This document shows, piece by piece, positions 5,966 through 19,326 of a DNA stretch of 33,305 nt (the first letter of the stretch is position 1; each line of letters starts with the position of its first letter). The notes under the pieces were generated by a model. The model did not search any database. It had not been told where the DNA came from and worked only from the letters and a program-made list of their open reading frames with translations. Made by a program: the position numbers and the translations under genes. The DNA is from a virus, in IMG/VR virus record IMGVR_UViG_3300025117_000173, positions 1 to 33,305 of that record; one strand, given 5' to 3'.

Positions 5966-6862
5966 ATGCGCCAGCGCGTCATCCGTCTGGGCCCTCGCGG
6001 GGGCCGCGTCGTCCGCGAGCACTTGGGACCGGACGGACGGATGCGCTACGAGTACGACCGGCCCGGCGGACCGGCCCCGACGCGCCAGGCGGCGCCCGAG
6101 CCGCTCCGGCCCGGCGGCAGACCGCCGGCCGGGCCGGGAGCCCCGCACGCCCCGGCCGACTTCCTGCGTCAGATCGAGGACGCCGCCCGCCCCCACGGCT
6201 ACCTGCTACACCGGCTCACCGCTCCGAACGGTCCCCCGATCGCCGTCCTGACCCGCGACGAGGGCAACCGTGGCCCGCGCGTGCTGGTGGCCGCGGGCGT
6301 CCACGGCGACGACCGCGCCGGCCCGCAGACCCTGCTGGCGCTCTTCCAGGGCACCCGGCCGCGGCTCCCCGGGCACGGCGTCTTCCTCCCGCTCGTGAAC
6401 GCCCACGGCTTCGAGCGGGGTACTCACGGCGGCGCCGACGGCGACCCGAACCGCGGCAACCTGGCGGCCGTGCCGAGTTCCGCCGAAGGGCGGACGTTGC
6501 GCGCCCACTTCCCGACGCTGCTGCAGGCCGCCCGGGACGGCTTCCTAGACCTCCACGAGGACGTCGAAGCGAACGGGGTCTACGTGCAGACCTGGGAGCC
6601 CGGGACCCGCCCGGGGATCCGCTCCGCCCGCGTGCTGGGCGCCGCGGCCCGAGTGGCGCCGCTCTACACCGGGGCGAACCGCTACAAGGAGCGGGTCGAG
6701 CTCGGCGTGCTGCTGCGTGGGGAGTCCGAGGGGTCGCTGGCCGAGACGTTCTACCGGCGGGGTGCGGTGCCCGCCATCCAGTTCGAGGCGCCCGGGAAAG
6801 CCCCGCTGGCGCTGCGGGTCGCGTGCGGGCTCGCCGCGGTGCGGGCGTTCCTAGTGGGGTGA
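5966..6862 (+). CDS. M14-like zinc peptidase with N-terminal IGPRGG module
   Basis: This is a 298-aa protein. Residues 5-33 carry the LGPRGGRVV...YEY module shared with four other proteins in the window. After a Pro-rich linker, residues about 75-298 look like the M14 carboxypeptidase / succinylglutamate desuccinylase fold. H113-G-D-D116 stands at the usual HxxE zinc-ligand position, followed by a DPNRGN element, H197 in DLHED, and E274 in QFEAPG as the likely general acid/base. Asp instead of Glu at the second ligand is a noted variant. Substrate is unknown: M14 relatives trim peptides, peptidoglycan stem peptides or N-acyl amino acids. In a phage head cluster it could act on cell wall during entry or on virion proteins; both are guesses. 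ATG 5966 has AAGGAG six bases upstream. Confidence 0.7.
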   Translation: MRQRVIRLGPRGGRVVREHLGPDGRMRYEYDRPGGPAPTRQAAPEPLRPGGRPPAGPGAPHAPADFLRQIEDAARPHGYLLHRLTAPNGPPIAVLTRDEGNRGPRVLVAAGVHGDDRAGPQTLLALFQGTRPRLPGHGVFLPLVNAHGFERGTHGGADGDPNRGNLAAVPSSAEGRTLRAHFPTLLQAARDGFLDLHEDVEANGVYVQTWEPGTRPGIRSARVLGAAARVAPLYTGANRYKERVELGVLLRGESEGSLAETFYRRGAVPAIQFEAPGKAPLALRVACGLAAVRAFLVG

Positions 6863-6864
6863 AC

Positions 6865-7470
6865 ATGGCGCAGCAGGTCATCCGGATCGGTCCCCGGGGC
6901 GGCCATATCGTCGCCGAGGGGACGGGCGGGAAGGGCCCGCAGTACGAGGGGCACGGGGAGGAGCACGTCGGGGCCGCCCGGCGGCCGGCGCTGGACCGGC
7001 CGGTGCAGGGCTCGCTGTTCGATGCCCCCCGGACGCTGGCGCTCAAGCCGTCGGAGGAACCCCGGGCGCCCCGGGCGACGGCGGGAGAGCAGGGAGACCT
7101 GTTCGGTGGGCCACCCCGGACAGTGGCGCTCGCCGGCGCGGGCCGCGCGGCGCCGGAGCGGACGGCCGCGGCGCCGGCGCCCGCGAAGGACCAGCGCAAG
7201 CCGTGGTCCGACAGCAGCGACCGCCACGTCCTCGACTACGCCAAGAATCGGGAGGCAGATCCCGCCTACGTCGAATCCGCCAAGCGCGAAGCCGCCGCGC
7301 GCCAAACCGAGCACGGGAAGCGGCTCGCGGCTCTGAGCGACGATGACCTGGGTCACCTGGAGCACCTCTGGAAGAACGGCGTCAAGACCCCGCTCGACGA
7401 GGTAGTGGGTCACTTTGATCCGGGCGGCGGCTTGCGCGGGTCTGCGGCCGCTGGCAAGCTGTCCCCATGA
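6865..7470 (+). CDS. IGPRGG-module protein with QxxLF/PRTxAL motifs, probably truncated
   Basis: This 201-aa protein opens with VIRIGPRGGHIV at residues 5-16. It then carries two linear motifs in Pro/Ala-rich sequence: QGSLFDAPRTLAL (7006-) and QGDLFGGPPRTVAL (7090-), the same order as in the proteins starting at 10936 and 14936. A short charged helical region follows (about residues 112-175). The last 22 residues are encoded from the 20-bp sequence at 7401-7420 onward, which recurs inverted at 10674-10693. The natural C-terminus may therefore have been lost to an insertion and replaced by junction sequence. The stop overlaps the next start (ATGA). No enzymatic domain is visible. The start lacks a strong ribosome binding site and may rely on coupling to the peptidase gene two bases upstream. 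Confidence 0.65.
   Translation: MAQQVIRIGPRGGHIVAEGTGGKGPQYEGHGEEHVGAARRPALDRPVQGSLFDAPRTLALKPSEEPRAPRATAGEQGDLFGGPPRTVALAGAGRAAPERTAAAPAPAKDQRKPWSDSSDRHVLDYAKNREADPAYVESAKREAAARQTEHGKRLAALSDDDLGHLEHLWKNGVKTPLDEVVGHFDPGGGLRGSAAAGKLSP
7401..7420 (+). repeat. Left copy of 20-bp inverted repeat
   Basis: These 20 bases (containing GTGGGTCACTTTGATC) are the exact reverse complement of 10674-10693. The match stops at both edges. Together the copies bracket about 3.25 kb whose genes do not look like phage structural genes. They resemble in style the repeated GTGGGTCA-type motifs I associate with IS21-family ends, but that resemblance is from memory and weak. Confidence 0.8.
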
Positions 7471-7736
7471 GCAACGCGAACCCCAGACGCCCGCGCGACC
7501 CGAGCCAGCTCGCCAAGATGATCGTGGAGCTGGCGACCGGCGAGAAGGACGAGAAGCGTCGCACGCCAGACGACCCCTCCCCTGCACCCGAGACCCCCGA
7601 GAAGAACCCCGCCGCCGTCGTCCTGGGGCGCCTGGGCGGGCTGAAAGGCGGCAAGGCCCGCGCTGCGAAGCTCAGCGCGGAGGAACGCACGGCGATCGCA
7701 AGAAAGGCGTCCAGCGTCCGCTGGACTAAGACGTAG
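7467..7736 (+). CDS. Small basic conserved bacterial protein (RPRDPxQLAK ... GGLKGGKARA family)
   Basis: This 89-aa protein carries an RPRDPSQLAKMIVELATGE N-terminus, a Pro-rich middle, then GRLGGLKGGKARAAKLSAEER and a C-terminal IARKASSVRW. This pattern belongs to a widespread family of small, Lys/Arg-rich bacterial proteins of unknown function, usually chromosomal. The basic C-terminal half could bind nucleic acid, but that is inference. No Shine-Dalgarno is seen; a TTGCGC at 7432-7437 and CAAGCT at 7455-7460, 17 bp apart, could be a promoter giving an almost leaderless message. It overlaps the preceding stop by four bases. Its family and position inside the repeat-bounded island suggest it came from a bacterial chromosome. 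Confidence 0.7.
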   Translation: MSNANPRRPRDPSQLAKMIVELATGEKDEKRRTPDDPSPAPETPEKNPAAVVLGRLGGLKGGKARAAKLSAEERTAIARKASSVRWTKT

Positions 7737-8076
7737 CAGGTCAGCCGCAGCCGCCAACAGAGCCACCGAATCACGATCGACGCGGTCTCGCATTTCTTGA
7801 CCCCGCCGATGCGACGTCAGCGCCCTTCGGCCAGTGTATGGATAGTGATACGGTCCATTCCGGGACCCCGTTGTAGATTCCGCAATGCCCATCGCGGCCT
7901 TGTCCCTGGCGCCTCTGCGGCATCTCGCCGACTCGTTCGGGCCCGGCCCCACGCGATCCGCCGCCAGATGATTGCGGGCGGCGGATCGGCGGATCGGCTG
8001 GGCTTCCCGGGAGAACATTGCGGGCCGCGATCGGATCGTGTATCAGATGTTCTTGGATGCCGGATTTGGAGGCTGC
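7737..8076. other. Noncoding stretch between 7467 gene and 8077 gene
   Basis: These 340 bp are visibly less GC-biased than the phage genes (for example the stretch 7837-7885). I find no convincing gene. A TTGACC at 7797-7802 and several short dyads are present but do not make a clear promoter or terminator. A tandem GCGGATCG repeat lies near 7980-7998. Open frames in this stretch have shadow-like composition. Confidence 0.4.
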
Positions 8077-8622
8077 GTGAACACTACGATTTCCGCCGTC
8101 GGGCGGCGCCGCGATGACGGGCGGTACGAGATTACGGAGACGGTCATCGTCGAACGGCACGTCCTTTCGGATGCCATCGACGGCTATGCGTCCCGGGGCG
8201 TGACGGTGATGTTCCCACCCGAGCGGGCGGAGACGCCGGCCGCGCTTCCGGCGCCCCACGCCACCGCCACCAAGGAAGGCGACGACCGGCCATCCGATAC
8301 CGAGCCGCCCGGCGATTCGGCCGGCGACTCGGCGGCCGAATCGCCGGCCGTGAGCCTTAAGAAGTTCGCTGACACGAACCCGACCGAGACATTCGCCCTT
8401 GCGGACCTCACCCAGAAGTGCATGGAACTTGGGTGGAACTACGGAGACAAGGACGAGCCGAGGCGCCGGAACGCAGTGAGCGAGCACATCCGGCAGCTCA
8501 GGGCGAAGGGCGAGGGCCGGATCTTCAAGATCGGTAACGGGCGGTTGACGACGTACCTCGTGGGGGACGCCGCGGAGCGCGCGCACGCCGCTGCCCGCAA
8601 GGTCGAGCGAGACAGCGGATGA
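8077..8622 (+). CDS. Hypothetical protein, possible winged-helix C-terminal domain
   Basis: The GTG at 8077 is chosen because GGAGG at 8068-8072 is well spaced; upstream in-frame starts (TTG 7972, GTG 8038, ATG 8047) lack one. The protein is 181 aa. The N-terminal part (TTISAVGRRRDDGRYEITETVIVERHV) is strand-rich. A Pro/Ala/Asp-rich linker separates it from about residues 90-165 (KKFADTNPTETFALADLTQKCMELGW...VSEHIRQLRAKGEGRIFKIGNGRLTTYLV), whose helix-helix-helix-hairpin pattern resembles a winged helix, so DNA binding is possible. I do not recognise the family. It is intact, lies in the repeat-bounded island and is followed by a structured noncoding region it might regulate. Confidence 0.55.
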   Translation: MNTTISAVGRRRDDGRYEITETVIVERHVLSDAIDGYASRGVTVMFPPERAETPAALPAPHATATKEGDDRPSDTEPPGDSAGDSAAESPAVSLKKFADTNPTETFALADLTQKCMELGWNYGDKDEPRRRNAVSEHIRQLRAKGEGRIFKIGNGRLTTYLVGDAAERAHAAARKVERDSG

Positions 8623-8636
8623 TGGCGGAGGTGTTG

Positions 8637-8696
8637 ATGAACCGGAAAGACGGATGCCCCGCAGCTGTAAATATCCGGTGCTGTAGGGGCAATTAA
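8637..8696 (+). CDS. Putative 19-aa Cys-containing peptide (possible leader peptide)
   Basis: An ATG at 8637 sits five bases after GGAGG and 14 bp after the previous stop. It opens a 19-codon frame (MNRKDGCPAAVNIRCCRGN) ending in TAA. Its own sequence can fold: TGCCCC 8655-8660 pairs with GGGGCA 8686-8691, and CAGC 8662-8665 with GCTG 8680-8683. A larger hairpin follows at 8703-8755. This looks like a leader-peptide arrangement, but coincidence cannot be excluded. Confidence 0.25.
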   Translation: MNRKDGCPAAVNIRCCRGN

Positions 8697-8702
8697 CAAG
8701 GT

Positions 8703-8755
8703 GGCCGTCCTCCCCGACGCGCCCGCAAGGGTTGCCGGAGCGTCGGGGGAGGACG
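8703..8755 (+). terminator. Large GC-rich hairpin, terminator-like without T-run
   Basis: CCGTCCTCCCCGACGC in the left arm pairs with GCGTCGGGGGAGGACGG in the right arm with one bulged base. The loop of about 20 nt includes CCCGCAAGGG. The stem is very stable but no T-tract follows, so it may be an attenuator, processing or transcript-stability element rather than an intrinsic terminator. Confidence 0.45.
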
Positions 8756-8938
8756 GGAGGCCGTTGGGTCTCGGGACGGGTCTTGGTTCCGAACGGTGTG
8801 GGTAGCACCGGTCGGGACGGGTCCCCATCGCCAACTGCCGGCAGAACCACCGCGGAGCGGCGCAACACGATGTGGATTCTATCCACATGCCCGCCCCGCG
8901 GTCAAGACCCTGCCGGCATGAACGGAAAGGTTCGTGCC
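8756..8938. promoter_or_regulatory. Control-region-like DNA: 12-bp direct repeat and operator-like palindrome
   Basis: TCGGGACGGGTC occurs at 8771-8782 and 8812-8823, with a small CGGTG/CACCG hairpin between the copies. A perfect dyad ATGTGGAT-TCT-ATCCACAT spans 8870-8888, the size of a dimeric repressor site, about 50 bp before the ATG at 8939. No cognate regulator can be named; the 8077 protein is a candidate only by proximity. Confidence 0.4.
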
Positions 8939-9076
8939 ATGCCTCGGTACAGCGGTATCGTCGCGAGGCCGGGCTACCACCTGATCTTCCGGCCGGTCAT
9001 CCGGCTCCGGAACGGCCGGGTGCTCTACGCCCAGAGCTACGGGTTGGCCGCGTTCCCGATCTGGGTCCGCGACTAG
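8939..9076 (+). CDS. Small hypothetical protein (45 aa)
   Basis: ATG 8939 is preceded by GGAAAGG eight bases upstream; an in-frame ATG at 8918 has none. The peptide MPRYSGIVARPGYHLIFRPV followed by IRLRNGRVLYAQSYGLAAFPIWVRD has the look of a compact beta-rich domain: alternating hydrophobic strands and a conserved-looking G-R-x-x-Y-A-x-x-Y-G-L-x-A-F core. I recall similar RNGK/RxLYAxxYGLKAF peptides in phage and mobile DNA but cannot name a family. A clear hairpin follows the stop at 9092-9124. A short gene with a good start, its own control-like region and a terminator-like end is plausible. Confidence 0.5.
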   Translation: MPRYSGIVARPGYHLIFRPVIRLRNGRVLYAQSYGLAAFPIWVRD

Positions 9077-9091
9077 TCGGCGCTCTTCGCG

Positions 9092-9124
9092 GTGGGCCCT
9101 GTTGGCGTTGAATCGGCAGGGCCC
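9092..9124 (+). terminator. Hairpin after the 8939 gene, terminator-like
   Basis: GGTGGGCCCTG and CAGGGCCCACC form an 11-bp perfect stem around a 15-nt loop just downstream of the TAG at 9074-9076. Only a weak pyrimidine-rich run (CTTCCAATTT) follows. It would separate the small gene from the transposase transcription unit. Confidence 0.55.
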
Positions 9125-9168
9125 ACCCTTCCAATTTCGCCGGGACGAAACAAACTGACCGATAATGC

Positions 9169-9197
9169 TTGACCGCGTCCGCGCGTTCTGGTACCTT
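9169..9197 (+). promoter_or_regulatory. Promoter for the transposase gene
   Basis: TTGACC at 9169-9174 and TACCTT at 9192-9197 are separated by 17 bp, close to a sigma70-type consensus. The ATG lies at 9205, so the transcript would be almost leaderless, which fits the absence of a Shine-Dalgarno. Confidence 0.5.
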
Positions 9198-9204
9198 TCT
9201 GAAC

Positions 9205-10119
9205 ATGAACCGCCTCGACAACAAGACCCGCGTCCTCATCACCAAGCTCCTCGTCGAGGGGAACTCGGTACGGGCCACCGCTCGCATCGCGGACGTCTCC
9301 AAGAACACCGTCACCAAGCTCCTCGTGGCGCTGGGCGAGGTCTGCTCGGAGTACCAGGACAAGGCCCTGCGGAACCTCCCCTGCCAGCAGATCGAGGTCG
9401 ACGAGATCTGGTCCTTCTGCTACTCCAAGCAGAAGAACGTTCCCGTCAGCATGAAGGGTCAGTTTGGCGTCGGCGACGTCTGGACCTGGACCGCCATCGA
9501 CGCTGAGACGAAGCTCGTCCCGAGCTGGCTGGTCGGGGACCGCGACGGGTACACCGCGGGCGCGTTCATCAAGGACCTGGCGAGCCGTCTGGCGAGCCGC
9601 GTGCAGCTCACCAGCGACGGCCTCAAGCTCTACGTGCAGGCCGTTGAAGACGCCTTCGGCTGCGACATCGACTTCGCGCAGCTCATCAAGCAGTACGGCG
9701 GCGAGGGCAGCAACCGGAACCCAGAAACCCGCTACAGCCCAGCGGTCTGCACCGGCGTCGAGAAGATCGCCGTCACGGGACGCCCGGATGAGGCGCTGGT
9801 CTCCACGTCCTACGTCGAGCGCCAGAACCTCACGATGCGCATGAGCATGCGCCGGTTCACGCGCCTGACCAACGCCTTCTCGAAGAAGGTGCAGAACCAC
9901 GCGGCCGCCATCGCGCTGCACTTTTTCCACTACAACTTCTGCCGGATCCACTCCTCGCTGCGGGTCACCCCGGCGATGGCCGCCAAGGTCACGGACCGCC
10001 TCTGGGAAGTCTCCGACCTGGTCGCGATGCTCGTGGCGCGCGAAGACGCCGAAGAGGCGGAGAAGGGGCCGCGCCGCACGCGCAACAAGCCGAAGACGAA
10101 CGAAGGCGCCGAGGGCTGA
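9205..10119 (+). CDS. IS1-like DDE transposase
   Basis: This is a 304-aa protein. An N-terminal helix-turn-helix (NSVRATARIADVSKNTVTKLL, about residues 17-38) precedes an IS1/InsB-type catalytic domain. D66 lies in EVDEIWSF, D138 in TSDGLKLY and E205 in SYVERQN, followed by the family hallmark NLTMRMSMRRFTRLTNAFSKK and a basic tail. All three acidic residues are present and the frame is uninterrupted, so it may be active. I found no terminal inverted repeats or target duplication tightly around it, so it is either a solo or domesticated copy, or part of the larger repeat-bounded island. The start at ATG 9205 is preferred over TTG 9169, which lies in the -35 element. Such full-length single-ORF IS1-like transposases are common in environmental bacteria. 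Confidence 0.85.
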   Translation: MNRLDNKTRVLITKLLVEGNSVRATARIADVSKNTVTKLLVALGEVCSEYQDKALRNLPCQQIEVDEIWSFCYSKQKNVPVSMKGQFGVGDVWTWTAIDAETKLVPSWLVGDRDGYTAGAFIKDLASRLASRVQLTSDGLKLYVQAVEDAFGCDIDFAQLIKQYGGEGSNRNPETRYSPAVCTGVEKIAVTGRPDEALVSTSYVERQNLTMRMSMRRFTRLTNAFSKKVQNHAAAIALHFFHYNFCRIHSSLRVTPAMAAKVTDRLWEVSDLVAMLVAREDAEEAEKGPRRTRNKPKTNEGAEG

Positions 10120-10131
10120 GCGCCGGAGCAG

Positions 10132-10188
10132 TTACCGAGCCGGCCAGTCCGCGGTAGGGTGTCCCCTCAACCACACCATGGAGGGGAC
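10132..10188 (+). promoter_or_regulatory. Possible promoter and hairpin sequestering the ribosome binding site of the 10191 gene
   Basis: TTACCG at 10132-10137 and TAGGGT at 10155-10160 are 17 bp apart. Directly after, GTCCCCTC at 10161-10168 is a perfect complement of GAGGGGAC at 10181-10188, with a 12-nt loop. The right arm includes the GGAGGGG Shine-Dalgarno for the GTG at 10191, so the folded form would hide it. Confidence 0.45.
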
Positions 10189-10190
10189 CC

Positions 10191-10412
10191 GTGGATAGCC
10201 GACTCGACGTTGATGCGGCCCTGTTCAGCGCCGCCGTCACCATCTTCTTCGCGACCGATCCAAGTCGCACGGCGCGCGACCTTCTGTTCAACCAGGATGC
10301 TCTCGACGCCGCCAGCAAGGCTGCCGTCGAAGCGTTCGGAGCTACGCGGTCTGTGATCCGGGAAGCGCGGTTCCAGAATCGGGCCCTTTTCCAGCAGAAG
10401 TCCGAGGGCTGA
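10191..10412 (+). CDS. Small hypothetical protein (73 aa)
   Basis: The GTG start at 10191 has GGAGGGG about five bases upstream. The protein MDSRLDVDAALFSAAVTIFF and on is helical (FSAAVTIFFATDPSRTARDLLF; AASKAAVEAFGATRSVIREARFQNRALF). No family is recognised. Its last 70 bp overlap, tail to tail, the minus-strand gene at 10342-10596. Its start region can form the sequestering hairpin described above, so translation may be conditional. Composition is compatible with a real short protein; antitoxin-like or regulatory roles would be guesses. Confidence 0.45.
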   Translation: MDSRLDVDAALFSAAVTIFFATDPSRTARDLLFNQDALDAASKAAVEAFGATRSVIREARFQNRALFQQKSEG

Positions 10413-10596
10413 GGCTGTCTGCTAACTCCAGCACACGCCGCCGGTGTTCCTCGGCTTCGGCCGCAGACAGCGGCGGCGGGGCTTCCTCCTGCTCTCGGCG
10501 GCGGCGGTCCTGCGTCTTCTCGTCCCGGATCAGCCCCACCCACCAGCGCACCGCTCGGCGCACGGCGCCGTCGAACAACCCGAACAGCCTTCCCAT
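10342..10596 (-). CDS. Small hypothetical protein with hydrophobic/basic N-terminus (84 aa)
   Basis: Read on the minus strand, the ATG at 10596-10594 follows a GGGAGGG ribosome binding site and the frame stops at 10342. The N-terminus MGRLFGLFDGAVRRAVRWWV looks amphipathic and could lie on a membrane. The middle is highly charged and helical (RDEKTQDRRRREQEEA; AAEAEEHRRRVLELADSL). No family is recognised. A promoter-like TTGCCG / TACGAT pair on the same strand lies 35-65 bp upstream. It is one of only two minus-strand features in the window, the other being the tRNA, and overlaps the 10191 gene by 71 bp at its 3' end. Confidence 0.45.
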   Translation of the reverse strand: MGRLFGLFDGAVRRAVRWWVGLIRDEKTQDRRRREQEEAPPPLSAAEAEEHRRRVLELADSLSPRTSAGKGPDSGTALPGSQTA

Positions 10597-10673: not shown

Positions 10674-10693
10674 GATCAAAGTGACCCACTACC
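10674..10693 (-). repeat. Right copy of 20-bp inverted repeat
   Basis: This is the exact reverse complement of 7401-7420 with no extension on either side. It lies just before three CCCGGG palindromes (10700-10740) and the tRNA gene. It marks the probable right edge of the foreign-looking island. Confidence 0.8.
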
Positions 10694-10746
10694 CGGTTTC
10701 CCGGGCGGGCGTCGGTCCCGGGATGCTCTCCCGGGAGGGGCACGAG

Positions 10747-10818
10747 TAGGAGGGGCAGGGCTCGAACCTGCGACCTGCGGCTTATCGGGCCGCTGCTCTA
10801 CCGCTGAGCCACCCTCCC
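10747..10818 (-). tRNA. tRNA-Ile (anticodon GAT)
   Basis: The minus strand folds as a complete cloverleaf: 7-bp acceptor stem starting GGGAGGG (with a G-T pair at 1:72), 4-bp D stem GCTC/GAGC, 5-bp anticodon stem GCGGC/GCCGC, five-base variable loop, and T arm GCAGG-TTCGAGC-CCTGC, with A as discriminator. CCA is not encoded. The anticodon loop reads CCGATAA, giving anticodon GAT (Ile). Position 33 is C rather than the near-universal T, which is unusual. It faces opposite to all phage structural genes. Confidence 0.85.
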
Positions 10819-10935: not shown

Positions 10936-13900
10936 ATGGCCGACTACTCGCCGCCCGCCGCCCACCCCATCGTCCGAATCGGCCCCCGTGGCGGGAAGAT
11001 CATCGCGGAACGGTTCGGCAAGGACGGGAAGCCGGAGTTCGAGTACCAGCGGCAGGAGCACCAGCACCTGGGCGCCGGGCCGCACCGGGAAGCGCCCTAC
11101 CAGCGCCCGGTGCAGCAGTCGCTCTTCGACGCCCCGCGCACCCTCGCGCTGAAGCCCCCGGAGGAGCCCCGCCGGCGCGCCACCGATGCACCGCAGGGCG
11201 ACCTGTTCGGGGCGCCGCGGACGGTCGCCGTCGCCCACCCCGAACCGCCGTCCGGGAGCCGGGTCGCGAAGTTGGCGAAGCCGCTCCCCTGGGCGGCGGT
11301 GCAGCACCATGAGCCGGAACCGGCCGCGGCGCCGGCCCCGAAGGCGGAGTGGAAGGCGCCGGAGCCGACGCCGGCAGCGGCGAAGTTGGAGGGGCAGTCG
11401 CGGGAGCGGAAGCCGGACGTGGCAGTGAGAGCGGTAGACGATCCGAAGTCGCCCGGGTGGGCCCCCACTCGTGGCCCGGATCCCGAGTCGTTCGACATCG
11501 CGGAGACGTCCAACGAGACCGGCTCGCGGATGATCGACGTCTGGCGCCACTTGGTGAAGTTCCCCACCAAGAAGGAGGCCGCAGCGGCGGCCAGAGAGAT
11601 CGGCTGGAGCGCCAACGACGCGGTGAAGGTGGCAACCCGTTTCCAGGAGTTGTGGGGACTCCACAACATGGGCGGCTACGTCACGAAGCGCGGCTACGAC
11701 CGGATGCGGCAGGCGCGCGGCGTGGTCGTACCCGAGAAGCCGGTCGAACCTTCGAGCGACGTTCGGCTCCAATGGTCCGCGGCCGAGCTGAGCCAGCCGG
11801 GCGAGTACATGCGCTTGAAGGCGGAGTGGGACGCGCTTCCCGTGGACGAGAAGAACCGCAGGAACGCCGCCGGATCGGAGACGCTGGCGACCCCCGCCCG
11901 CGTGAACCCCGACGAGGTCACCGCAGCGGAGCAGCGCCAGCGGCAGGAAGCCGCCGAGGAGAGCGCCCGCCGCCGGCGGAAGCCGGACGAGCCGGAGGCC
12001 CCGGAGCCGGCGGAGAAGCTCGAGCGGCAGGTCGAGGCCCACGCCGTCGAGCGGGAGGAAGCCGCCGCCGCCGAAGCCGAGAACGAAGGCGACGGCGGCA
12101 AGGGCGGGCCGAAGACGGCCATCATCCAGACGCAGCACCTGAAGCGCTTCGAGAAGGAGATCGAGGCGCTCAACAAGCGGGCGCGCCGGCTCCACGTCCC
12201 GGAGTTGAAGTGGGAGGAGGTCCCCGGCTCCCGTCGGGTCGAGACCGAGACCCACGAAATGCAGATGCACCACCAGACCTACAAGACGGTTGTCACCCGT
12301 CAGGTCTGCGAGGTCCGTCTCATCGGCGACCCGCCGCAGCTCGCGGGCTGGAAGTTCATCGCCAAGGCGAAGGAGACCCCGAACGGCGGCTGGATCTTCA
12401 AGACCGCCGCCGGAGAAGAGGTCCCGCTCAAGCTCCGCACGCGGGAGCACCACCGGGACTGCGACCACTGCCAGATGAAGCGCGACCGCAAGGGCGCCTA
12501 CATCGTCAAGAGCGAGAAGAGCGGCGAGCACAAGACGATCGGGACGTCCTGCGTCAAGGACTTCCTGGGCGGCCATGATCCCGAGGGGGCGATGAACGCC
12601 CTCACGATCTGGGCCGACGCGAACCGCATCCTCGCCGGCATGGCCGCCGACGACGGCGAGGGCAGCGACGGCTTCGGCGGTGGCGGAAAGCCCGAGGGCG
12701 CCGGTCTCCACCGCTTTCTGTCGCACGTCGCCTGGGCGATCCGGGAGACCGGCTGGGTCTCGAAAGCGGCGGCGCAGGCCTCCGACGAGTTCCACCCGAA
12801 GACGGCGACGGTGGACGACGCGCTGCGGACCCTGTTCATGCCGGTCGAAGAGGCCCGCAAGGTTCTGGGGGCGGGCGGGAGCATCAACCCCGAGGCCGCC
12901 GACGAAGAGCTGGCGCGCAAGACGATCGCCTGGGCGAAGAAGAAGTACGTCGAGGTCCCCGTCGAGTCCCTGGACACCTTCGGCCACAACCTGCGGACGG
13001 TCATCACGGAGGACTACGTCCACAAGGACGTGTTCGGGATGGCGGCGTACCTCGTCCGCGGCTACCAGCGGGAGCAGGGCGAGATCCTGTCGAAGAAGCG
13101 GGCGGCGGAGGCCGGGCACTTCGGCAAGCCCGGCGAGAAGGCGGAGACCGACGTCACGGTCATCGCCACCCGCGAAATGGAACCAGGGCAGTGGGGGGAG
13201 TCGACCCTGGTCACCATGGAGACCCCGGACGGCCACACCCTGAAGTGGTTCGCGTCGAACCTGCCGCGCAGCTTCGAGCAGGGCGTGAAGATGCGGGTGA
13301 AGTTCACCGTGAAGAAGCACGACCAGTACCGCGGGCGTCCCGAGACGACGGTGTCCCGCGTCAACCTCGTCGGCCCGGCCGAGGGGAGCGGCCACAAGGC
13401 GTTCATGCCGAAGGGGATGAAGCAGCCGATCCTGCTGCCGAGCTTCAAGGAGGGGACGGGGCTGCACGACCTGTTGGAAGAGGGGCGCCAGCGCGAGGAA
13501 ACGTTCGAGCAGCGGGTGGAGTCCGCGACCGACGCGAAGTACCGGGAGGAGCTGAAGAGCCCGATCTACTCCGGGAAGTACGCGAAAGTGACGGACGAGG
13601 AGCGGGAAGGCCTGCGTCGGAACGTCCGCGACAGCGCGCGCTCGGCGGTCTACCACGAGGACTGGAAGGCGGCCATGATGGCCGCGAACGAGTCCGGCGC
13701 GCGGCTCTTCGAGCCCCACGCGCAGCCGGGCGTCCACTTCGTGAACCTCGACCCGCCGGACGAGCCCGGGAAGGCCATCGAGACCTACGAGATCGAGGGG
13801 TACTACACGGTCGGCCGCCTCCAGGAACACCCCTACGTCCGGGCGTTCCGGGTCTCCGACCCCGACGGGAAGATGAAGGAGTTCGAGCTGCAGCGCCATG

Positions 13901-14037
13901 CCCTGGTGGTCGTCGGCGGCGAGGAAGACCCGCCGCCCGAGAAGAAGAAGCGCCCCCGCACCGTGAAGCTCGCCCGCCTCCCCGGCGAGAGCGACTTCGC
14001 CCACAGCGAGCGCCAGGCGCGAGAGAACGGCGAGTAG
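10936..14037 (+). CDS. Large multidomain phage protein: IGPRGG module, QxxLF motifs, CxxC domain
   Basis: This is a 1033-aa protein; ATG 10936 has GGAGG five bases upstream. Order: IVRIGPRGGKII (residues 14-25); QQSLFDAPRTLAL and QGDLFGAPRTVAV (about 60-100); a KPLPWAA...AAAKLE linker; a helical, possibly winged-helix part (about 180-260); an NPDEVT...QRQ...SARRRRKP segment (324-354) also found in the left-edge giant protein. The core (about 395-810) has C509-x-x-C512 and C539 in DCDHC...TIGTSC, a pattern I recall from uncharacterised large phage proteins and suggestive of zinc binding. A beta-rich region (TDVTVIATREMEPGQWG...VSRVNLVGP) follows. The C-terminal part (about 845-1033) ends with another PRTVKLA motif. 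The role is unknown; a virion-delivered accessory protein is plausible. Confidence 0.7.
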   Translation: MADYSPPAAHPIVRIGPRGGKIIAERFGKDGKPEFEYQRQEHQHLGAGPHREAPYQRPVQQSLFDAPRTLALKPPEEPRRRATDAPQGDLFGAPRTVAVAHPEPPSGSRVAKLAKPLPWAAVQHHEPEPAAAPAPKAEWKAPEPTPAAAKLEGQSRERKPDVAVRAVDDPKSPGWAPTRGPDPESFDIAETSNETGSRMIDVWRHLVKFPTKKEAAAAAREIGWSANDAVKVATRFQELWGLHNMGGYVTKRGYDRMRQARGVVVPEKPVEPSSDVRLQWSAAELSQPGEYMRLKAEWDALPVDEKNRRNAAGSETLATPARVNPDEVTAAEQRQRQEAAEESARRRRKPDEPEAPEPAEKLERQVEAHAVEREEAAAAEAENEGDGGKGGPKTAIIQTQHLKRFEKEIEALNKRARRLHVPELKWEEVPGSRRVETETHEMQMHHQTYKTVVTRQVCEVRLIGDPPQLAGWKFIAKAKETPNGGWIFKTAAGEEVPLKLRTREHHRDCDHCQMKRDRKGAYIVKSEKSGEHKTIGTSCVKDFLGGHDPEGAMNALTIWADANRILAGMAADDGEGSDGFGGGGKPEGAGLHRFLSHVAWAIRETGWVSKAAAQASDEFHPKTATVDDALRTLFMPVEEARKVLGAGGSINPEAADEELARKTIAWAKKKYVEVPVESLDTFGHNLRTVITEDYVHKDVFGMAAYLVRGYQREQGEILSKKRAAEAGHFGKPGEKAETDVTVIATREMEPGQWGESTLVTMETPDGHTLKWFASNLPRSFEQGVKMRVKFTVKKHDQYRGRPETTVSRVNLVGPAEGSGHKAFMPKGMKQPILLPSFKEGTGLHDLLEEGRQREETFEQRVESATDAKYREELKSPIYSGKYAKVTDEEREGLRRNVRDSARSAVYHEDWKAAMMAANESGARLFEPHAQPGVHFVNLDPPDEPGKAIETYEIEGYYTVGRLQEHPYVRAFRVSDPDGKMKEFELQRHALVVVGGEEDPPPEKKKRPRTVKLARLPGESDFAHSERQARENGE

Positions 14038-14057
14038 GCCGGAGACCTCCTGCGCCG

Positions 14058-14087
14058 TTGCGCACTCCCTCTCTGCGGCGCTACGAT
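14058..14087 (+). promoter_or_regulatory. Promoter before the 14127 gene
   Basis: TTGCGC (14058-14063) and TACGAT (14082-14087) are 18 bp apart in the 89-bp gap after the 1033-aa gene. The architecture resembles those upstream of the protease (20729) and sheath (28521) genes. Confidence 0.5.
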
Positions 14088-14126
14088 AGGCGCGCACACA
14101 GGGGACGTCGTCCGGGGAGACCGCCA

Positions 14127-14774
14127 ATGGATCCGCTGCGCCGCCTGGCCCGCCAGATCGCCCGGAAGTCCGAGGACGAGGATCCCGACTACCGGGAGCC
14201 CGACGACCCCGCCGAGGGCGACGATGAAGGCGACGACGACGGCTCCGCCGAGGACGAGCGCTCCGAGCGGGACGACCTCACCGACAAGGGCCTCAACCAG
14301 ACCCCCGAGGACACCTTCGCCGACACCGTCCTGGTGCCGCTCTACAAGACCTGGAAGGCGCGCGCGGGCGACCCCCAGGCGCCCTGGCCGGCTCGCTTCC
14401 CGGTCCAGCTCCACCCGCTCGCCCACGAAGCGCCGGGGAAGTTCGCGGCCCGGGTCGCCGCCTACTACCGCCGCCGGCCGGAGGCCGCCGAGGCCTTCCA
14501 CGCCGTCGGCGAGGAGCCGGAGTGGACCGACTGGGTGACCGGCGCGATGCGGCTCGCGAAGGGCGCCGGCTCGAGCCCGAAGCCGAAGCCCGCGGCCAAG
14601 CAAGGAGGCCCCGATGCGTCCCCGAATCGTCGCCCTGGGCCCGCAGGCGCCCCGCGTCCTGCGGCTGGCGCCCCGCCCCGCCGTCCCGCTGCGGCTCCCC
14701 GACCTGCTCCGAACCTGGGATCTCGGGGTGGAGGCGGTCCCGGAGGGGTTCGCGGTGTCGGGCCCCGGGGATGA
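14127..14774 (+). CDS. Acidic hypothetical protein (215 aa), long 3' overlap with the next gene
   Basis: ATG 14127 opens a protein with a basic start (MDPLRRLARQIARKSED). A very acidic stretch follows (about residues 16-50, DEDPDYREPDDPAEGDDEGD and on), then a compact region (about 58-150: TPEDTFADTVLVPLYKTWKARAG...FAARVAAYYRRRPEAAEAF...PEWTDWVTGAMRLA). After about residue 160 it becomes low-complexity Pro/Arg/Gly because it overlaps the next gene, which starts at 14614 in another frame. The functional part probably ends near there. No family is recognised. The 161-bp overlap is unusually long and could reflect a missing stop or a frameshift in this copy. Confidence 0.55.
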   Translation: MDPLRRLARQIARKSEDEDPDYREPDDPAEGDDEGDDDGSAEDERSERDDLTDKGLNQTPEDTFADTVLVPLYKTWKARAGDPQAPWPARFPVQLHPLAHEAPGKFAARVAAYYRRRPEAAEAFHAVGEEPEWTDWVTGAMRLAKGAGSSPKPKPAAKQGGPDASPNRRPGPAGAPRPAAGAPPRRPAAAPRPAPNLGSRGGGGPGGVRGVGPRG

Positions 14775-14943
14775 GGTCGTGAAGGCCCTGGACGCCCTCA
14801 ACCTGCCGCTCGAGGGGCTCCACCCGCACCCCGACGACGACGCCGTGTTCGTCGCCACGGTGCCAACCACGGGCGAGCTGCGCGAGGCCGGCTCGGCCGA
14901 CGTCGCGGCGCTGCGCCGGGCCCTCGGAGGCGCCGATGGCTGA
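14614..14943 (+). CDS. Small hypothetical protein (109 aa)
   Basis: ATG 14614 has a strong AAGGAGG ribosome binding site six bases upstream, inside the 3' end of the previous gene. The N-terminus MRPRIVALGPQAPRVLRLAP loosely recalls the IGPRGG module but lacks the RGG. A beta/alpha domain follows (LRLPDLLRTWDLGVEAVPEGFAV...VKALDALNLPLEGLHPHPDDDAVFVATV). It has no recognised family. Its stop overlaps the next start (ATG 14936), so translation is probably coupled to the IGPRGG protein that follows. Confidence 0.6.
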   Translation: MRPRIVALGPQAPRVLRLAPRPAVPLRLPDLLRTWDLGVEAVPEGFAVSGPGDEVVKALDALNLPLEGLHPHPDDDAVFVATVPTTGELREAGSADVAALRRALGGADG

Positions 14944-15880
14944 CCGACCTGTCATCGAGATCGGACCGCGTGGCGGTCGCATCGTCGGGCACCACGCTGG
15001 GCACGGCGGGAAGCCCGTGGCGGAGTACGAAGGGCATGTCGGCGGGGCGCTGCGCCCGTCGCAGCAGCGGCTGTTCGACAGCCCGCGGACGCTGACCCTG
15101 AAGCCTCCCGAGGAGCGGGAACGGCGGTCGGCAGCCGGGGAGGCGCAGACGGACCTGTTCGGCCCGCCCCGGACGATCGCCCTGCGGCCCCGCGAGGCCG
15201 CCATGGAACGGCGGGTGACAAAGCCCACAAAGCCGCTACCGTGGGCGGCGGAGAAACCGTCTGCGGCGGCGAAGCTCGAAGCGCAGACCGCCGCCCGATC
15301 CGCCGAGAAGCCGGCGGCGAAGGACTATGCTCTGCCCGCTGGCGAGTCCCGCTGGCACGGCGGTATCAAGGCCACCCGCGACGGGCGCAGCGTCAACCTC
15401 ACCGGGGCCACATACCCCGTTAAGGACAGCCTGGCAGCCCTGGGCGCGAAGTGGAACGGCGAACACCGGGCCTGGCGGCTGTCGCACGACAAGTACACGG
15501 CGGCCCACGATCGGATCCAGCGGCTCGGCGAGAAGGCCCATGACGCCTCCGCGGCCGAGAAGCGGGGCGAGACGACTCCGCAGCGCTCGGCACCGTCCGG
15601 CGGGGGAGGCGCGCGCCCGAGTGGCGGCGGGCCGTCCGAGAAGCAGCTTCACTACGCGCGGAGTCTCATCCGCCGCATGACGCCGTCGCACTGGCACGAT
15701 TCCGACTACGGCCAGGGAACGAGCCACGTGCCGACTTCCGACGAGCTTCAAAGGTGGTCGGCCCGGGACTTGTCGGCGCTCATCGACGACATGCGCGACT
15801 CCCTTGGGATCGGCAGCGCTTACAAGGACCTGAGCGGCGCGGAGCGTCTCGCCGCCCAGGTCGCCGAACGAGCGGCGTAG
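14936..15880 (+). CDS. IGPRGG-module protein with QxxLF motifs and DUF5710-like small domains
   Basis: This is a 314-aa protein. Residues 6-19 carry VIEIGPRGGRIVGH. QQRLFDSPRTLTL (15062-) and QTDLFGPPRTIAL (15146-) follow, then the KPLPWAA...AAAKLEAQ linker also present in the 1033-aa protein. Residues about 152-200 (VNLTGATYPVKDSLAALGAKWN...RAWRLS) match the style of small LxALGxxWD...W domains (DUF5710-like) frequent in polyvalent proteins. Residues about 232-290 (PSEKQLHYARSLIRRM...WSARDLSALIDDMR) resemble short EKQxxYARxL...ALID modules of the same protein class. No catalytic residues are visible. It sits directly upstream of the portal gene (9-bp gap), so it is expressed with the head genes. 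Confidence 0.7.
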   Translation: MADRPVIEIGPRGGRIVGHHAGHGGKPVAEYEGHVGGALRPSQQRLFDSPRTLTLKPPEERERRSAAGEAQTDLFGPPRTIALRPREAAMERRVTKPTKPLPWAAEKPSAAAKLEAQTAARSAEKPAAKDYALPAGESRWHGGIKATRDGRSVNLTGATYPVKDSLAALGAKWNGEHRAWRLSHDKYTAAHDRIQRLGEKAHDASAAEKRGETTPQRSAPSGGGGARPSGGGPSEKQLHYARSLIRRMTPSHWHDSDYGQGTSHVPTSDELQRWSARDLSALIDDMRDSLGIGSAYKDLSGAERLAAQVAERAA

Positions 15881-15889
15881 GAGAACCCG

Positions 15890-17575
15890 ATGGCTGAGCA
15901 GTCGCAGGCGCTCGTCCCGGTCGGCTCCCGGCCGCTCGGGCGTCTCCCGCGGGGCGCCCGGCAGATGTCGCGGCCCGGGGACCTGGATTCCCGGCTGGAC
16001 GTCGACCGCCAGCAGGGCGAGGGCTTCTCCTACCAGTACGACCCCGAAGAGCTGCAGGTCGCGCAGGACTTCATGGAGGGTATGCGGACGCACAGCCGCT
16101 ACTCCACCTACGCCCTGCGGCAGATGGCGCTCTCCCCCTGGGCGAGCTGCATCCTGTCGACCCGCTGCAACCAGATCGCGAGCTTCAGCCTGGCCCGAGA
16201 GGACCCCTACGGGCTCGGCCACCAGATCGCGATCCGGGGCCGCTCGAACCACAGCCCGACCCCGGCGGAGCGCAAGGAGATCGAGCGCGTCGAGTCCTTG
16301 CTGCAGACGTCGGGGACCATCAAGGAGCCGCACGAGGTCTTCACCCGGCCCAGCTTCGACGACTTCCTGCGGGCGCTGGCCTACGACTCGCTCGTGCTGG
16401 ACGCGGGCGTCTTCGAGGTCGTCCCGGACGAGAAGGGGGTCCCGCACCGCTGGCACCCCGCCGACGCCGGCCTCATCTACCGGGTACGGCCGCAAAACCC
16501 CTTCGGCGACTACGACAAGGCCGACGCGCAGTTCTGCCAGATCCACCACGACACCCCGACGCAATACTTCGCCCCGGGCGAGCTGTGCTTCGGGATCCGG
16601 CGCCCGCGGACCGACGTCCGCAGCAACGGCTATGGTCATCCAGAGCTGACCGAAATGTTGGAGGTGATGTCGGGCCTGCTCTTCGGGTTCACGCACAACC
16701 TCAACTGGTTCCGGCAGGGCGGGCCGCGCGGGATGCTGGCCGTGATGGGCCCGATGCACCCGCAGAAGTTCCGGGCTCTCCAGCGCTCGCTGATGTTTAT
16801 GGCCCGCGGCGTCCAGAACGCCTGGCGGATGGTCGTCGCGAACCCCCAGGGCGAGGGTGCCGACGTGAAGTGGGTTCCCTTCGGCGTCTCCAACAAAGAG
16901 ATGGAGTTCGCGGAGTGGATCAACGCCTGCTTCCGCCTCATGTGTAGTCTGTGGCAGATCGATGCCACGGAGGTAGGTTTCTACTACGCTTCAGAGGGGA
17001 ACCGCGGGGCGATGTTCGAGTCCTCCCCGGAGGCCAAGCTGAAGGCCGGCAAGGATAAGGGTCTCCGCCCGCTGGCGACCGCCATCAGCTCGTGGATCAA
17101 CAAGTTCATCGTCCATCGGCTGAACCCGGACCTGGAACTGGAGTTCCTGGGCCTCGGCGCGATGACCGAGAAGGAGCGCGCCGAGCTCTCCAAGACGCTC
17201 GTCGAGTCGTCCCGCACGGTCGACGAGGTCCGGGCGCTCGACAACATGGGCAAGGACCCGAACGGGTTGGGGAACCTCATCCTGAACCCGCAGTACATCA
17301 CGGCCTACAACGCGCAGCAGGCGCAGAAGCAGCAGGCCGCGATGATGGCGCAGCAGGGCCAGGGCGGGCCGGGCGGTCCCGAAGGTGCGGACGGTCCCGG
17401 TGGGGCGGGGCAGCCCGGGGCAGAGGCCCAGGGCGAGGGTGCCGGGGCGCCCGGGGGCGACGACTGGGCGAACGACCCGCTGCCCGATGGGGGCGATGTC
17501 AGCGGTGGGTTCGCCGACGAGCAGGCCGGCGAGGCGGCGAAGAGCCTCGTCCGGGCGTACTCCTGGGTCCTTTAG
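15890..17575 (+). CDS. Phage portal protein
   Basis: This 561-aa protein forms the ring at the capsid vertex through which DNA is packaged and ejected. Recognisable features are the early helical segment with LRQMALSPWASCILSTRCNQI, the wing/stem region (FDDFLRALAYDSLVLDAGVFEVV; HPADAGLIYRV), the conserved RRPRTDVRSNGYGHPELTEM stretch, and the FAEWINACFRLMCSLWQID...EVGF segment typical of portals of myo- and siphoviruses. The C-terminal tail after about residue 470 is Gln/Gly/Pro-rich and probably disordered. ATG 15890 follows GGAGAA. Length fits the family. Terminase, normally just upstream, is not in the window; accessory genes occupy that position. Confidence 0.9.
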   Translation: MAEQSQALVPVGSRPLGRLPRGARQMSRPGDLDSRLDVDRQQGEGFSYQYDPEELQVAQDFMEGMRTHSRYSTYALRQMALSPWASCILSTRCNQIASFSLAREDPYGLGHQIAIRGRSNHSPTPAERKEIERVESLLQTSGTIKEPHEVFTRPSFDDFLRALAYDSLVLDAGVFEVVPDEKGVPHRWHPADAGLIYRVRPQNPFGDYDKADAQFCQIHHDTPTQYFAPGELCFGIRRPRTDVRSNGYGHPELTEMLEVMSGLLFGFTHNLNWFRQGGPRGMLAVMGPMHPQKFRALQRSLMFMARGVQNAWRMVVANPQGEGADVKWVPFGVSNKEMEFAEWINACFRLMCSLWQIDATEVGFYYASEGNRGAMFESSPEAKLKAGKDKGLRPLATAISSWINKFIVHRLNPDLELEFLGLGAMTEKERAELSKTLVESSRTVDEVRALDNMGKDPNGLGNLILNPQYITAYNAQQAQKQQAAMMAQQGQGGPGGPEGADGPGGAGQPGAEAQGEGAGAPGGDDWANDPLPDGGDVSGGFADEQAGEAAKSLVRAYSWVL

Positions 17576-17589
17576 CGGTGAGGTGACGC

Positions 17590-19326
17590 ATGGGCGGTGA
17601 GCGGCGAGTGTTGGCGTTGCGGCGGGCGGACATCGGGGGGAGCCCGGAGTACCGGGATGCGGACCTCGCGGTGAAGGGCGACGTCATCGAGATCGGGCCC
17701 CGCGGGGGGAAGATCGTCGGCCACACCTTCCACAACGGGAAACGGGTCCCGGTCTATGAGGGGTCCGGCGGCGGCGGGGAGCCGACGCTCGGGAGCGCTG
17801 TGCAGGACGACGCCCACCGGCGCGGCTGGTCGTTCCCCAGCGCGAGCGGCTGGTCGGTGAACCGCCAGGCCGGCGGGCACAGCTACGAGATCCAGCACCG
17901 GCGCGAGTACGGCGACGACCAACACCTGTCGAGCTACGAGGTCTCCCACGTCGACCCCGACAACAAGCGGACCACGATCGGCAAGTTCCACGAGGCCGAC
18001 GACGCGAAGCGGGCGGCGCTGCGGCACGACGTCGAGCGCCGCGGGCCCGGCGGAGGTACGCCGGCGCCCTCCCCCGCCGCGGCGAAGCTCTCCGAGCAGA
18101 CCGCCGGTTCCAAGGTCGTCAGCCTGGCGGACCGGCGGCCCCCGGCGGAGCCGAGCGAGCCCCCGAAGCGCCCCGCCCACCCCGACACGACGGAGCGCCA
18201 CCTGGGCGCGAAGTACGACGCCGGCCGGGACACCGCCGAGGTCGCCCGCCTGTTCCGCGAGGACGTCAAGCGGGCCATCGCCTCGGGCGACCTGCCGAAG
18301 GGGCTGAAGCTCTCGGTCAACACCCGCAAGTACAGCGGCGGCTCGTCCATCCACGTCGAGGTCCAGGCGGCCCCGGGCGTCCAGGTCGGCAACCCGGAGC
18401 GGCACGCCCACGACGCGAAGTACGGCCCCCTCGGGAACCCCGGGGAGCGCCCGCCGGCGCTGCTCCACGCGGACGGGGCGGCCCTCCAGGAGAAGCTCCG
18501 GGGGCTGCTGCGGGCCTACGAGAAGTCGGCCCACGACTCGGGGAACGACTACTACTCGAGCAACTTCCACCCCAGCGTGGAGTTCGCGAGCGAGCTGCGG
18601 AAGGCGCCCGGGGCCGCAGCGCCCGGCTCGTCTTCGTCGAAGGCCGATGCGCTGCGCGAGCAGATCCGGGCGCGCACCGGCGGAGTGACCGCGCCGGCGG
18701 CCCCGCCCTCCCCGGCGCTCGCCAAGCTGGCGCAGCAGGCCGCCGCCGGCGCGAGCCCGAACGTCTCCAGCGCGGCCCCGCCCCCCCGACCGGCCGCGGC
18801 GCCGCCGAAGCCGGTGGTCTCGCAGACCCTTGCCCGCCAAATCGCGGAGCGGCGGCCAACCCTGGAGATGGGCGCCCAGCAGACCGACCTCGCCGGCCCG
18901 CCGTCGCGCAAGACCCACGTCTCGGCGGCCATCCAGCAGTCCGCCGACGAGATCGACCGGCGGCTCGGGAGCCTCGAGCGCATCAACGGGCGCACCGGGG
19001 AGTGGTCGAGCCGCGAGCACCTGGCGCGCTACATCAACGCCGCGGAGCGCGGGCTGGTCGAGCTGAAGGGCCTGATGCGCCGAGCGGAATCCGAGGGCGC
19101 CTCGGGCGGCAACCTCGGGACCCGGCTGCTCGCCCTGCAGACGAACCTGCGGCGCGCCCAGGGCCACCTGAAGGACCGGAACTACCGCACCGACAAGCCG
19201 GCCTCGGAGTCGCTGCCGCTCTTCCGCGGAGAGCCGGCGCCGAACCGGGCGAAGCCGGCCGGCGGACAGGGGAGCCTCTTCGGCGGGCAGGGCGGGACCG
19301 ACCCGCGCCAGCGGACCCTGTTCTGA
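17590..19326 (+). CDS. IGPRGG-module protein with LPD29-like domain and QxxLF C-terminus
   Basis: This is a 578-aa protein. After a 31-residue lead-in comes VIEIGPRGGKIVGHTF...VPVYEG (about residues 33-58). Residues about 210-335 (DTAEVARLFREDVKRAI...GLKLSVNTRKYSGGSSIHVEV...LLRAYEKSAHDSGNDYY) resemble LPD29, a 'large polyvalent protein-associated' domain, with its K-S-V-x-x-x-K-Y-S-G-G-x-S-I signature. Pro/Ala linkers with PAAAKLSEQT and a degenerate QQTDLAGPP follow. A helical region (about 435-535) precedes QGSLFGG (19267-) and the terminal RQRTLF (19309-19323). The role is unknown. Lying between portal and MuF-like genes, it is a candidate virion or injected protein. Confidence 0.7.
   Translation: MGGERRVLALRRADIGGSPEYRDADLAVKGDVIEIGPRGGKIVGHTFHNGKRVPVYEGSGGGGEPTLGSAVQDDAHRRGWSFPSASGWSVNRQAGGHSYEIQHRREYGDDQHLSSYEVSHVDPDNKRTTIGKFHEADDAKRAALRHDVERRGPGGGTPAPSPAAAKLSEQTAGSKVVSLADRRPPAEPSEPPKRPAHPDTTERHLGAKYDAGRDTAEVARLFREDVKRAIASGDLPKGLKLSVNTRKYSGGSSIHVEVQAAPGVQVGNPERHAHDAKYGPLGNPGERPPALLHADGAALQEKLRGLLRAYEKSAHDSGNDYYSSNFHPSVEFASELRKAPGAAAPGSSSSKADALREQIRARTGGVTAPAAPPSPALAKLAQQAAAGASPNVSSAAPPPRPAAAPPKPVVSQTLARQIAERRPTLEMGAQQTDLAGPPSRKTHVSAAIQQSADEIDRRLGSLERINGRTGEWSSREHLARYINAAERGLVELKGLMRRAESEGASGGNLGTRLLALQTNLRRAQGHLKDRNYRTDKPASESLPLFRGEPAPNRAKPAGGQGSLFGGQGGTDPRQRTLF

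Follow-up and report, generated by a model that had tools for sequence, protein, structure and literature searches.

The IMG/VR virus record IMGVR_UViG_3300025117_000173 is one linear stretch of 33,305 bases (called the window below, meaning the whole of it), and it raises the question of what a short module built around the sequence GPRGG is doing on five of its proteins, those whose genes begin at 5966, 6865, 10936, 14936 and 17590 and which are named here by those positions. As portal, MuF-like, protease and major head genes are present together with a tail sheath gene, the window represents a portion of a contractile-tailed phage. The answer that we favor, at a probability of about 0.55, is that the module is a transferable domain that docks head cargo into the prohead and has been moved from gene to gene by contractile-tailed phages. 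The module is pictured as a domain of ~25-30 residues (strand, GPRGG turn, strand and strand, then a helix in several relatives) that (i) would bind a common partner during prohead assembly, most likely the portal/MuF/protease-scaffold assembly, (ii) would thereby load each tagged protein into the capsid and (iii) in the case of tagged enzymes, would allow ejection with the DNA and activity early in infection.

Five copies of one module

Hidden Markov models (HMMs) built with one window copy left out recovered each withheld copy at 25-40 bits, with the next best of the 430 open reading frames (ORFs) having an expect value (E) above 1. The top score in 200 sets of shuffled ORFs was 13.4 bits versus the 25-40 bits of the withheld copies, and the 10936 copy as sole query found the other four (E 3.6e-8 to 9e-4). 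These controls bear out the first-pass annotation, which had placed the module on these five proteins from the letters of the window, and each protein is indeed encoded from the start that it gave. It had also noted that the codons differ between copies, and the GPRGG codons are indeed unlike at 3-5 of the 5 positions in every pair. The statement that all five proteins begin with the motif needs correcting for one of them: in the 17590 product the module starts at residue ~28-32 unless the in-frame GTG at 17671 is the start. Counted from an annotated start or a possible one, all five copies lie within ~32 residues, an N-terminal location of the T4/P1 type.

The description of the five proteins as otherwise unrelated was too strong. 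The 6865, 10936 and 14936 proteins have ~90-110 N-terminal residues in common at 50-58% identity, and the 6865 and 10936 genes are still 67% identical as DNA across ~260 bp, so that part of the five-copy set arose by duplication or recombination of N-termini. Behind the module of each of these three proteins lies a second linear motif, Q-x-x-LF-x(2,3)-PRT-[LV]-A-L, which is present as a pair (fuller pattern Q-[GQT]-[SDR]-LF-[DG]-x(1,2)-PRT-[LVI]-x-[LV]) and presumably resembles the bacterial beta-clamp-binding QLxLF peptide. The sequence QGSLFGG is found near the end of the 17590 product (19267-19323). A linker of ~60 residues is 63% identical between the large protein encoded at 138-4733 (residues 407-469, positions 1356-1544) and the 10936 protein (residues 303-359, positions 11842-12012), a sign of recombination among the candidate cargo genes.

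The domains attached to the module were less securely named than the module itself. The 5966 protein, labeled M14-like, matches AstE_AspA_cat just below the cut-off (24.2 vs 25 bits; E 2.8e-5), and the labels DUF5710-like and LPD29-like were not confirmed because the 14936 and 17590 proteins lack a Pfam match at E <= 1. The 6865 protein likewise had no Pfam match at E <= 1 and no PHROG match. The body of the 10936 protein matches phrog_2319 (9.1e-60), a family of unknown function.

AlphaFold2, given a 25-row alignment with the L176 copy from another phage as the query, returned a confident small domain (predicted local distance difference test, pLDDT, 88.2; predicted template modeling score, pTM, 0.62) with strands at residues 8-9, 15-19 and 25-27 and a helix at 31-45. 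The helix may be absent from the window copies, because the sequence following the tyrosine differs. No solved structure was found to contain the module (best E 4.2 and 0.47), and the model had no structural neighbor at Foldseek E<=0.001 in PDB or BFVD and none at Z>=2, which is weak evidence because the domain is very small. Run against the module segments, all Pfam families stayed below their cut-offs, the lowest E of any window copy being 0.094.

Spread of the module and its place among head genes

Patterns derived from the module and growing alignments of it were run over 2.9 million viral contigs. The form found in the window, V-I-x-I-G-P-[RKH]-G-G-[KRQ]-I-V-G...P-[IV]-Y (consensus V-I-A-I-G-P-R-G-G-K-I-V-G-Y-x(n)-G-K-P-I-Y-x-G), occurs as 27 copies on 14 non-redundant viral contigs, the window included. 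There are five copies in the window, four each in G023 and G825, two each in G823, G826 and G828, and one each in G020, G022, G822, G824, G827, G829, G830 and G831; G018 and G023 were counted as one phage from their equal scores and spacing. Outside the 27 stand weak second copies in G829 (E 8.0e-5) and G831 (3.3e-5), the former of which entered the positional test below, and a weak extra copy in G825 (E 0.002) that was excluded from that test as well. When the five window copies and the portal of the window served as the first queries, the scans brought up solely two contigs that are 99.99% identical to the window over 26.0 and 18.2 kb.

Head genes (portal, MuF, protease or capsid) lie near the module on all 14 contigs. 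The first-pass annotation had rightly put the window copies among head genes (portal, MuF-like, protease and major head genes at 15890-23895) and had proposed asking whether in related phages the motif is confined to genes near portal and capsid. Gene order is conserved among contigs with head proteins 27-46% identical to those of the window. The window order is four modules, portal, module, MuF, protease and capsid, that of G023 is module, module, portal, MuF, module, module, protease and capsid, and that of G825 is module, module, portal, module, module, MuF, protease and capsid. G824 and G831 have portal, MuF, a giant protein with the module, protease and capsid (G831 with its weak further copy before the portal). 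L158 has portal, module-Zeta and MuF, and in L160, L169, L173 and L176 giant module frames of 1937-2468 residues directly precede the protease and capsid genes. Thirteen copies on five contigs of 79-110 kb lie on average 3.2 kb from portal or MuF versus 19.7 kb for random placements, none of 20,000 of which was as close, a figure that overstates the significance because copies on one contig are not independent. By contig, all copies that were counted lay within 6.6 kb of portal or MuF on 5/5. As these positions came from whole-contig searches, the closeness was not produced by fetching; for four of the five contigs, G824, G825, G828 and G829, portal and MuF were sought only in the stretches fetched around the modules.

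The module is also found within head proteins. It is in one polypeptide with MuF in 4/14 contigs (three by Pfam, one by tblastn), once together with portal as well. The L159 polypeptide contains portal (2.1e-31), a weak module (2.4e-5) and MuF (3e-17), and its neighboring gene encodes the module with a Zeta toxin (1.5e-30). L175 encodes module, ADP-ribosyltransferase (ART, 7.9e-16) and MuF (8.3e-17) in one polypeptide, and G022 a module-MuF polypeptide (2.3e-14). The L163 polypeptide consists of a MuF-like part, pyrophosphatase (1.7e-33), module and PolyA_pol (7.4e-14); its MuF part has no Pfam MuF match and was recognized through tblastn alignments with the genes of the window (37% identity) and of G020 (57%). 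A module-Zeta toxin protein is encoded in L158 (5.5e-30) and a module-PolyA_pol-type nucleotidyltransferase in G023 (1.2e-5), whereas in G020 the window-form module is carried by an open frame of 2160 residues.

Pfam was run on 19 of the 27 module proteins, the remainder being the giants of L160, L169, L173, L174 and L176, two proteins of L161 and one of L163. In five of the 19 an enzyme domain passes its cut-off, in one case alongside MuF, and two have solely portal/MuF domains. Where giants and other proteins were labeled kinase-like or metallopeptidase-like, or two G011 proteins ART-like, this was a reading of motifs with no significant Pfam match; the L160 giant gave no PHROG match. By eye, L158, L036 and L175 have a similar N-terminal segment of ~100-120 residues before the module, followed by Zeta toxin, MuF and ART-MuF, respectively. 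The L161 module protein at 12826-14397 has a DUF2924-like region (5.7e-6, below cut-off), as does the start of the window protein encoded at 138-4733.

In bacteria the module is rare. Among 398 Pseudomonadota genomes there was one marginal match, in G395 (E 4.4e-4, chance level), which was set aside because its GPRGGRVVGE, within a frame of 688 residues, reads as incidental, and among 396 Actinomycetota genomes there was none, in a search that had no positive control in that phylum. The first-pass annotation had stated that its idea would fall if the motif were common in unrelated cytoplasmic bacterial proteins. A scan of 257 Gb of genomes gave eight pattern matches, six of which showed the motif and none, by eye, the rest of the module. 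Queried by tblastn, neither the 10936 copy nor the L176 copy matched anything at E<=10 among 50,697 annotated phage records; a G022-type query gave 10 matches at E 8-9 that were taken as chance. Several candidates were discarded. A further scan gave 45 stretches, none confirmed as the module. Among 12 pattern stretches, L028, L029, L035 and L039 form one tail/connector-like family with an incidental IGPRGGRV and L032 is an artefact. Among 18 later stretches, L170, L172, L178 and L179 lacked the module at E<=0.01 and were not counted; their contigs gave weak matches in G832-G834 (E 5e-4 to 1.1e-3) and none in G835. Among the papers listed as containing the string GPRGG (20 of 22), subscription journals lying mostly outside the search, none treats the module by its title, and the main texts of PMC5512222, PMC7824862 and PMC9503650 do not contain the string 'RGG'.

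A looser form, GPRGG[KR]YY, often preceded by VYx...PxG, was found in further viral contigs and in haloviruses, among them HVTV-1, HCTV-1 and HCTV-5. YY-type queries of the annotated phages gave haloviruses and two further matches at E 5-9; a Bacteroides phage match was rejected as it lacked the motif. The product of HVTV-1 gene 115, annotated as a zeta toxin and encoded between the portal/head-assembly and protease genes, has an N-terminal variant of this form (GDRGG). This product also matches an ATPase and, weakly and toward its end, an Alt-like ART (8.3e-4). The looser form is joined to a head maturation protease in one G010 protein (2.7e-7), and contig G020 has, besides its window-form copy, a pair of YIGPRGGKW variants, of which one belongs to a Zeta toxin (7.1e-27). 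In hhalign the profiles of the two forms align at 90% and 85% probability over 11 columns only. Profile A3 found none of G018, G022 and G023 at E<=0.1, profile A2 none of the 14 YY contigs searched, and profile A4 gave one weak match in G003 (E 0.02) and none in G011, G014, W01 and W02 at E<=1. The YY query matched in 7/398 bacterial genomes, the five sequences inspected being C-terminal tails of small Cys-containing proteins. Given the 11 columns, the scatter of the YY form described below and these bacterial tails, the case rests on the window form. The five, L148, L150, L151, L152 and L154, are small Pseudomonadota proteins ending in C-x-GPRGG-x-YC...G-x-K-x-Y, which is related to the YY hairpin but contains Cys.

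A proposed head-cargo role and the alternatives

Short targeting signals for head cargo are known in two phages. Part of PMC9026906 describes the first 10 residues of T4 IPIII as sufficient for capsid targeting, with removal of the propeptide by the protease gp21, and lists an ADP-ribosyltransferase among the ejected head cargo. Like the module, the T4 sequence (IPI-IPIII, Alt) is a short N-terminal segment that recurs on several proteins within a single phage, in T4 its head cargo; unlike it, the module is a ~30-residue domain of strong sequence identity that also lies inside proteins and in portal/MuF polypeptides. Owing to its length of ~10 residues, we infer, the T4 signal is too short for confident searching. 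For P1, the sections of PMC9024508 drawn on here report that 30 N-terminal residues of DarB are sufficient to direct a reporter to the capsid, that six known Dar-system proteins are packed, that DdrB is among the head proteins and that a shared signal was suspected in the Dar N-termini without a BLAST consensus. The window set, unlike the Dar proteins, has a plain common sequence. The window also encodes a ddrB-ParB protein (138-4733), a further likeness to P1; this protein had no module match with the A4 HMM and has two RTVAL motifs (residues 62-92). Because the reading frame continues upstream as far as the edge of the contig, the real N-terminus of the protein may lie outside the window.

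Two more protein classes overlap with the module set. The partner domains ddrB-ParB, InPase and ART and the virion-gene setting recall the polyvalent proteins of Iyer et al. 2017 (PMC5512222, in part), and excerpts of that paper and of PMC9503650 count ART and InPase among the domains for which packing into heads and injection have been proposed. As for polyvalent proteins, the module proteins are encoded among virion genes; several effector domains in one polypeptide occur in L163 and are plausible for the 138-4733 protein, and the five tagged window proteins have at most one enzyme domain, which is sub-threshold. MuF-ART joins and MuF polymorphic toxins have been described (parts of PMC9503650 and PMC5576092, respectively), and L175 and L163 resemble these in having MuF and an effector in one protein. 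MuF plus a toxin domain (ART) is seen in L175 and in none of the five window proteins. Unlike MuF-effector proteins, the module is also found on separate proteins that lack MuF, and thus MuF is not the sole carrier. In the favored reading, the module would work in the manner of the T4 and P1 signals. A recognizable cargo module would allow head cargo to be predicted from sequence, metagenomes included, and gives a direct test of folded-enzyme loading beside the portal.

That the module is short and transferable, occurs on several proteins per phage, is encoded beside the portal and is joined to some effector-type enzymes and to portal/MuF polypeptides suggests a tag. The first-pass annotation had offered a tag for head cargo as its explanation, and the idea gains from the neighborhood (14/14), the MuF fusions (4/14), the enzyme partners (5/19), the rarity in bacteria and the confident fold. 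A strictly N-terminal tag is spoken against by 11/27 copies, which begin over 61 residues from the start of their open frames (16/27 are within 61, with 6865 counted from its ATG). Several other findings also weigh against head-cargo docking. The model built from 11 rows on a window copy was of poor quality (pLDDT 55), 12 of the 19 scanned module proteins have no Pfam domain above cut-off, and of the five window proteins four lack a recognized enzyme domain, the match of the fifth being sub-threshold. The YY form is scattered along 165-172 kb in G003 (7 matches) and G014 (9; E<=0.1), one YY copy in HCTV-5 lies beside a ribonucleotide reductase gene far from head genes, and a related-looking GPRGGRYC tail is present on small bacterial proteins. 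Finally, MuF and portal carry the module although structural proteins need no cargo tag, and hence a structural role fits as well.

Such a role would make the module a joint within the portal-MuF region, or an oligomerization element there, that assists the assembly of neighboring proteins at the inner face of the portal; it would have no delivery function, and its partners would be accessory head proteins. Module genes situated around portal and MuF, modules built into MuF polypeptides with or without portal, a protease that carries the looser form and the lack of an assigned domain in most scanned partners are all consistent with this proposal. We consider it rather unlikely, however, as the partners above cut-off other than portal and MuF are Zeta kinase, ADP-ribosyltransferase, pyrophosphatase and nucleotidyltransferase, which have no evident structural use, and as copies lie near the start of the 1937-2468-residue frames.

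It is also unlikely that the module binds packaged DNA via a basic GPRGG hairpin, which would bring tagged proteins into the head or retain them on the genome once it has entered the cell, a mechanism put forward for basic virion proteins of the chlorella virus PBCV-1. Over 25 modules the core of 26 residues has a mean net charge of +2.2 and is basic, but the range is 0 to +5 and some copies are hardly basic. A possible parallel is the 'PBCV-1 specific basic adaptor domain' (PF08789), two PBCV-1 carriers of which, A278L and A282L, are placed among the basic DNA-associated virion proteins in part of PMC3281028. PF08789 gave sub-threshold matches to two GPRGGxY tails of G004 (E 0.024 and 0.065), and the best intermediate sequence reached 15.2 bits against a curated cut-off of 20.4 bits. 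Assignment of the window copies to PF08789 was rejected, as neither the five segments nor the window record matched at E<=10. Moreover, plain DNA binding does not predict closeness to portal and MuF.

A function after infection, inside the cell, where the module might for instance connect its carrier to a host protein and the head neighborhood would reflect only late co-expression of effectors, is improbable given that the module occurs in portal and MuF polypeptides, which remain in the virion as head proteins. In its favor are the scatter of the looser form over two large viral contigs, the GPRGGxY tails of bacterial proteins and the second linear motif of the window, which presumably resembles host-clamp-binding peptides.

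We hold a broader proposal only tentatively: one mobile head-docking domain, a signal for capsid cargo that can be recognized from sequence, may be distributed across distant contractile-tailed phages, such that any effector could enter the virion by acquiring it, and a looser version may exist in archaeal and perhaps algal giant viruses.

Other features of the window

Table 1 Module copies and other features of the window (each window copy is itself one row of alignment A4, which bears on its A4 HMM E value)
Feature	Position	Strand	Evidence
Module copy 1, N-terminus of 5966-6862 protein (AstE/AspA-like, M14-type)	5966..6070	+	leave-one-out E 4.5e-10; A4 HMM 3.4e-18
Module copy 2, N-terminus of 6865-7470 protein (201 aa)	6865..6966	+	leave-one-out E 3.5e-8; A4 HMM 5.1e-16
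Module copy 3, near N-terminus of 10936-14037 protein (1033 aa)	10957..11064	+	leave-one-out E 3.5e-10; A4 HMM 2.6e-18
Module copy 4, N-terminus of 14936-15880 protein (314 aa)	14936..15046	+	leave-one-out E 5.3e-12; A4 HMM 2.1e-15
Module copy 5, in 17590-19326 protein (578 aa)	17671..17778	+	leave-one-out E 3.6e-7; A4 HMM 7.1e-17
Double motif Q-x-x-LF-x(2,3)-PRT-[LV]-A-L behind copy 2	7006..7131	+	
Double motif Q-x-x-LF-x(2,3)-PRT-[LV]-A-L behind copy 3	11113..11232	+	
Double motif Q-x-x-LF-x(2,3)-PRT-[LV]-A-L behind copy 4	15062..15184	+	
Polyvalent-type protein, ddrB-ParB and DUF2924-like regions	138..4733	+	ddrB-ParB 1.5e-18; DUF2924 8.3e-7, below cut-off
Portal protein	15890..17575	+	PF04860 6.2e-12; phrog_12 3e-32
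MuF-like minor head protein	19588..20472	+	PF04233 0.0025, below cut-off; phrog_115 6.2e-5
Head maturation protease	20921..22369	+	phrog_1028 2.2e-25
Major head protein	22453..23895	+	phrog_752 4.3e-61
Tail sheath protein (contractile tail)	28580..30634	+	phrog_279 9.8e-32

Among the head genes of the window the portal gene comes first, then the MuF-like gene, then that of the head maturation protease and last the major head gene (Table 1). Its portal is 27-31% identical to the closest portals of annotated phages (SPO1-like, staphylococcal and others; best 30 of 621 records), and the MuF-like gene is 33-37% identical to the syntenic genes in G020 and G023.

Between module genes 2 and 3 lie a transposase-like ORF (9169-10119; phrog_720, 6.5e-5, weak) and, on the minus strand, a tRNA-Ile gene (10746-10818). 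A 20-base exact inverted match (7401-7420 and 10674-10693) flanks the transposase-like ORF. No empty site was seen for this stretch, because both near-identical contigs carry it too.

A segment of ~63-73 residues around P-x-PTYxGGGSG is 41-43% identical between the protease (21548-21760) and the start of the major head protein (22438-22626), and this is possibly a common processing or scaffold segment.

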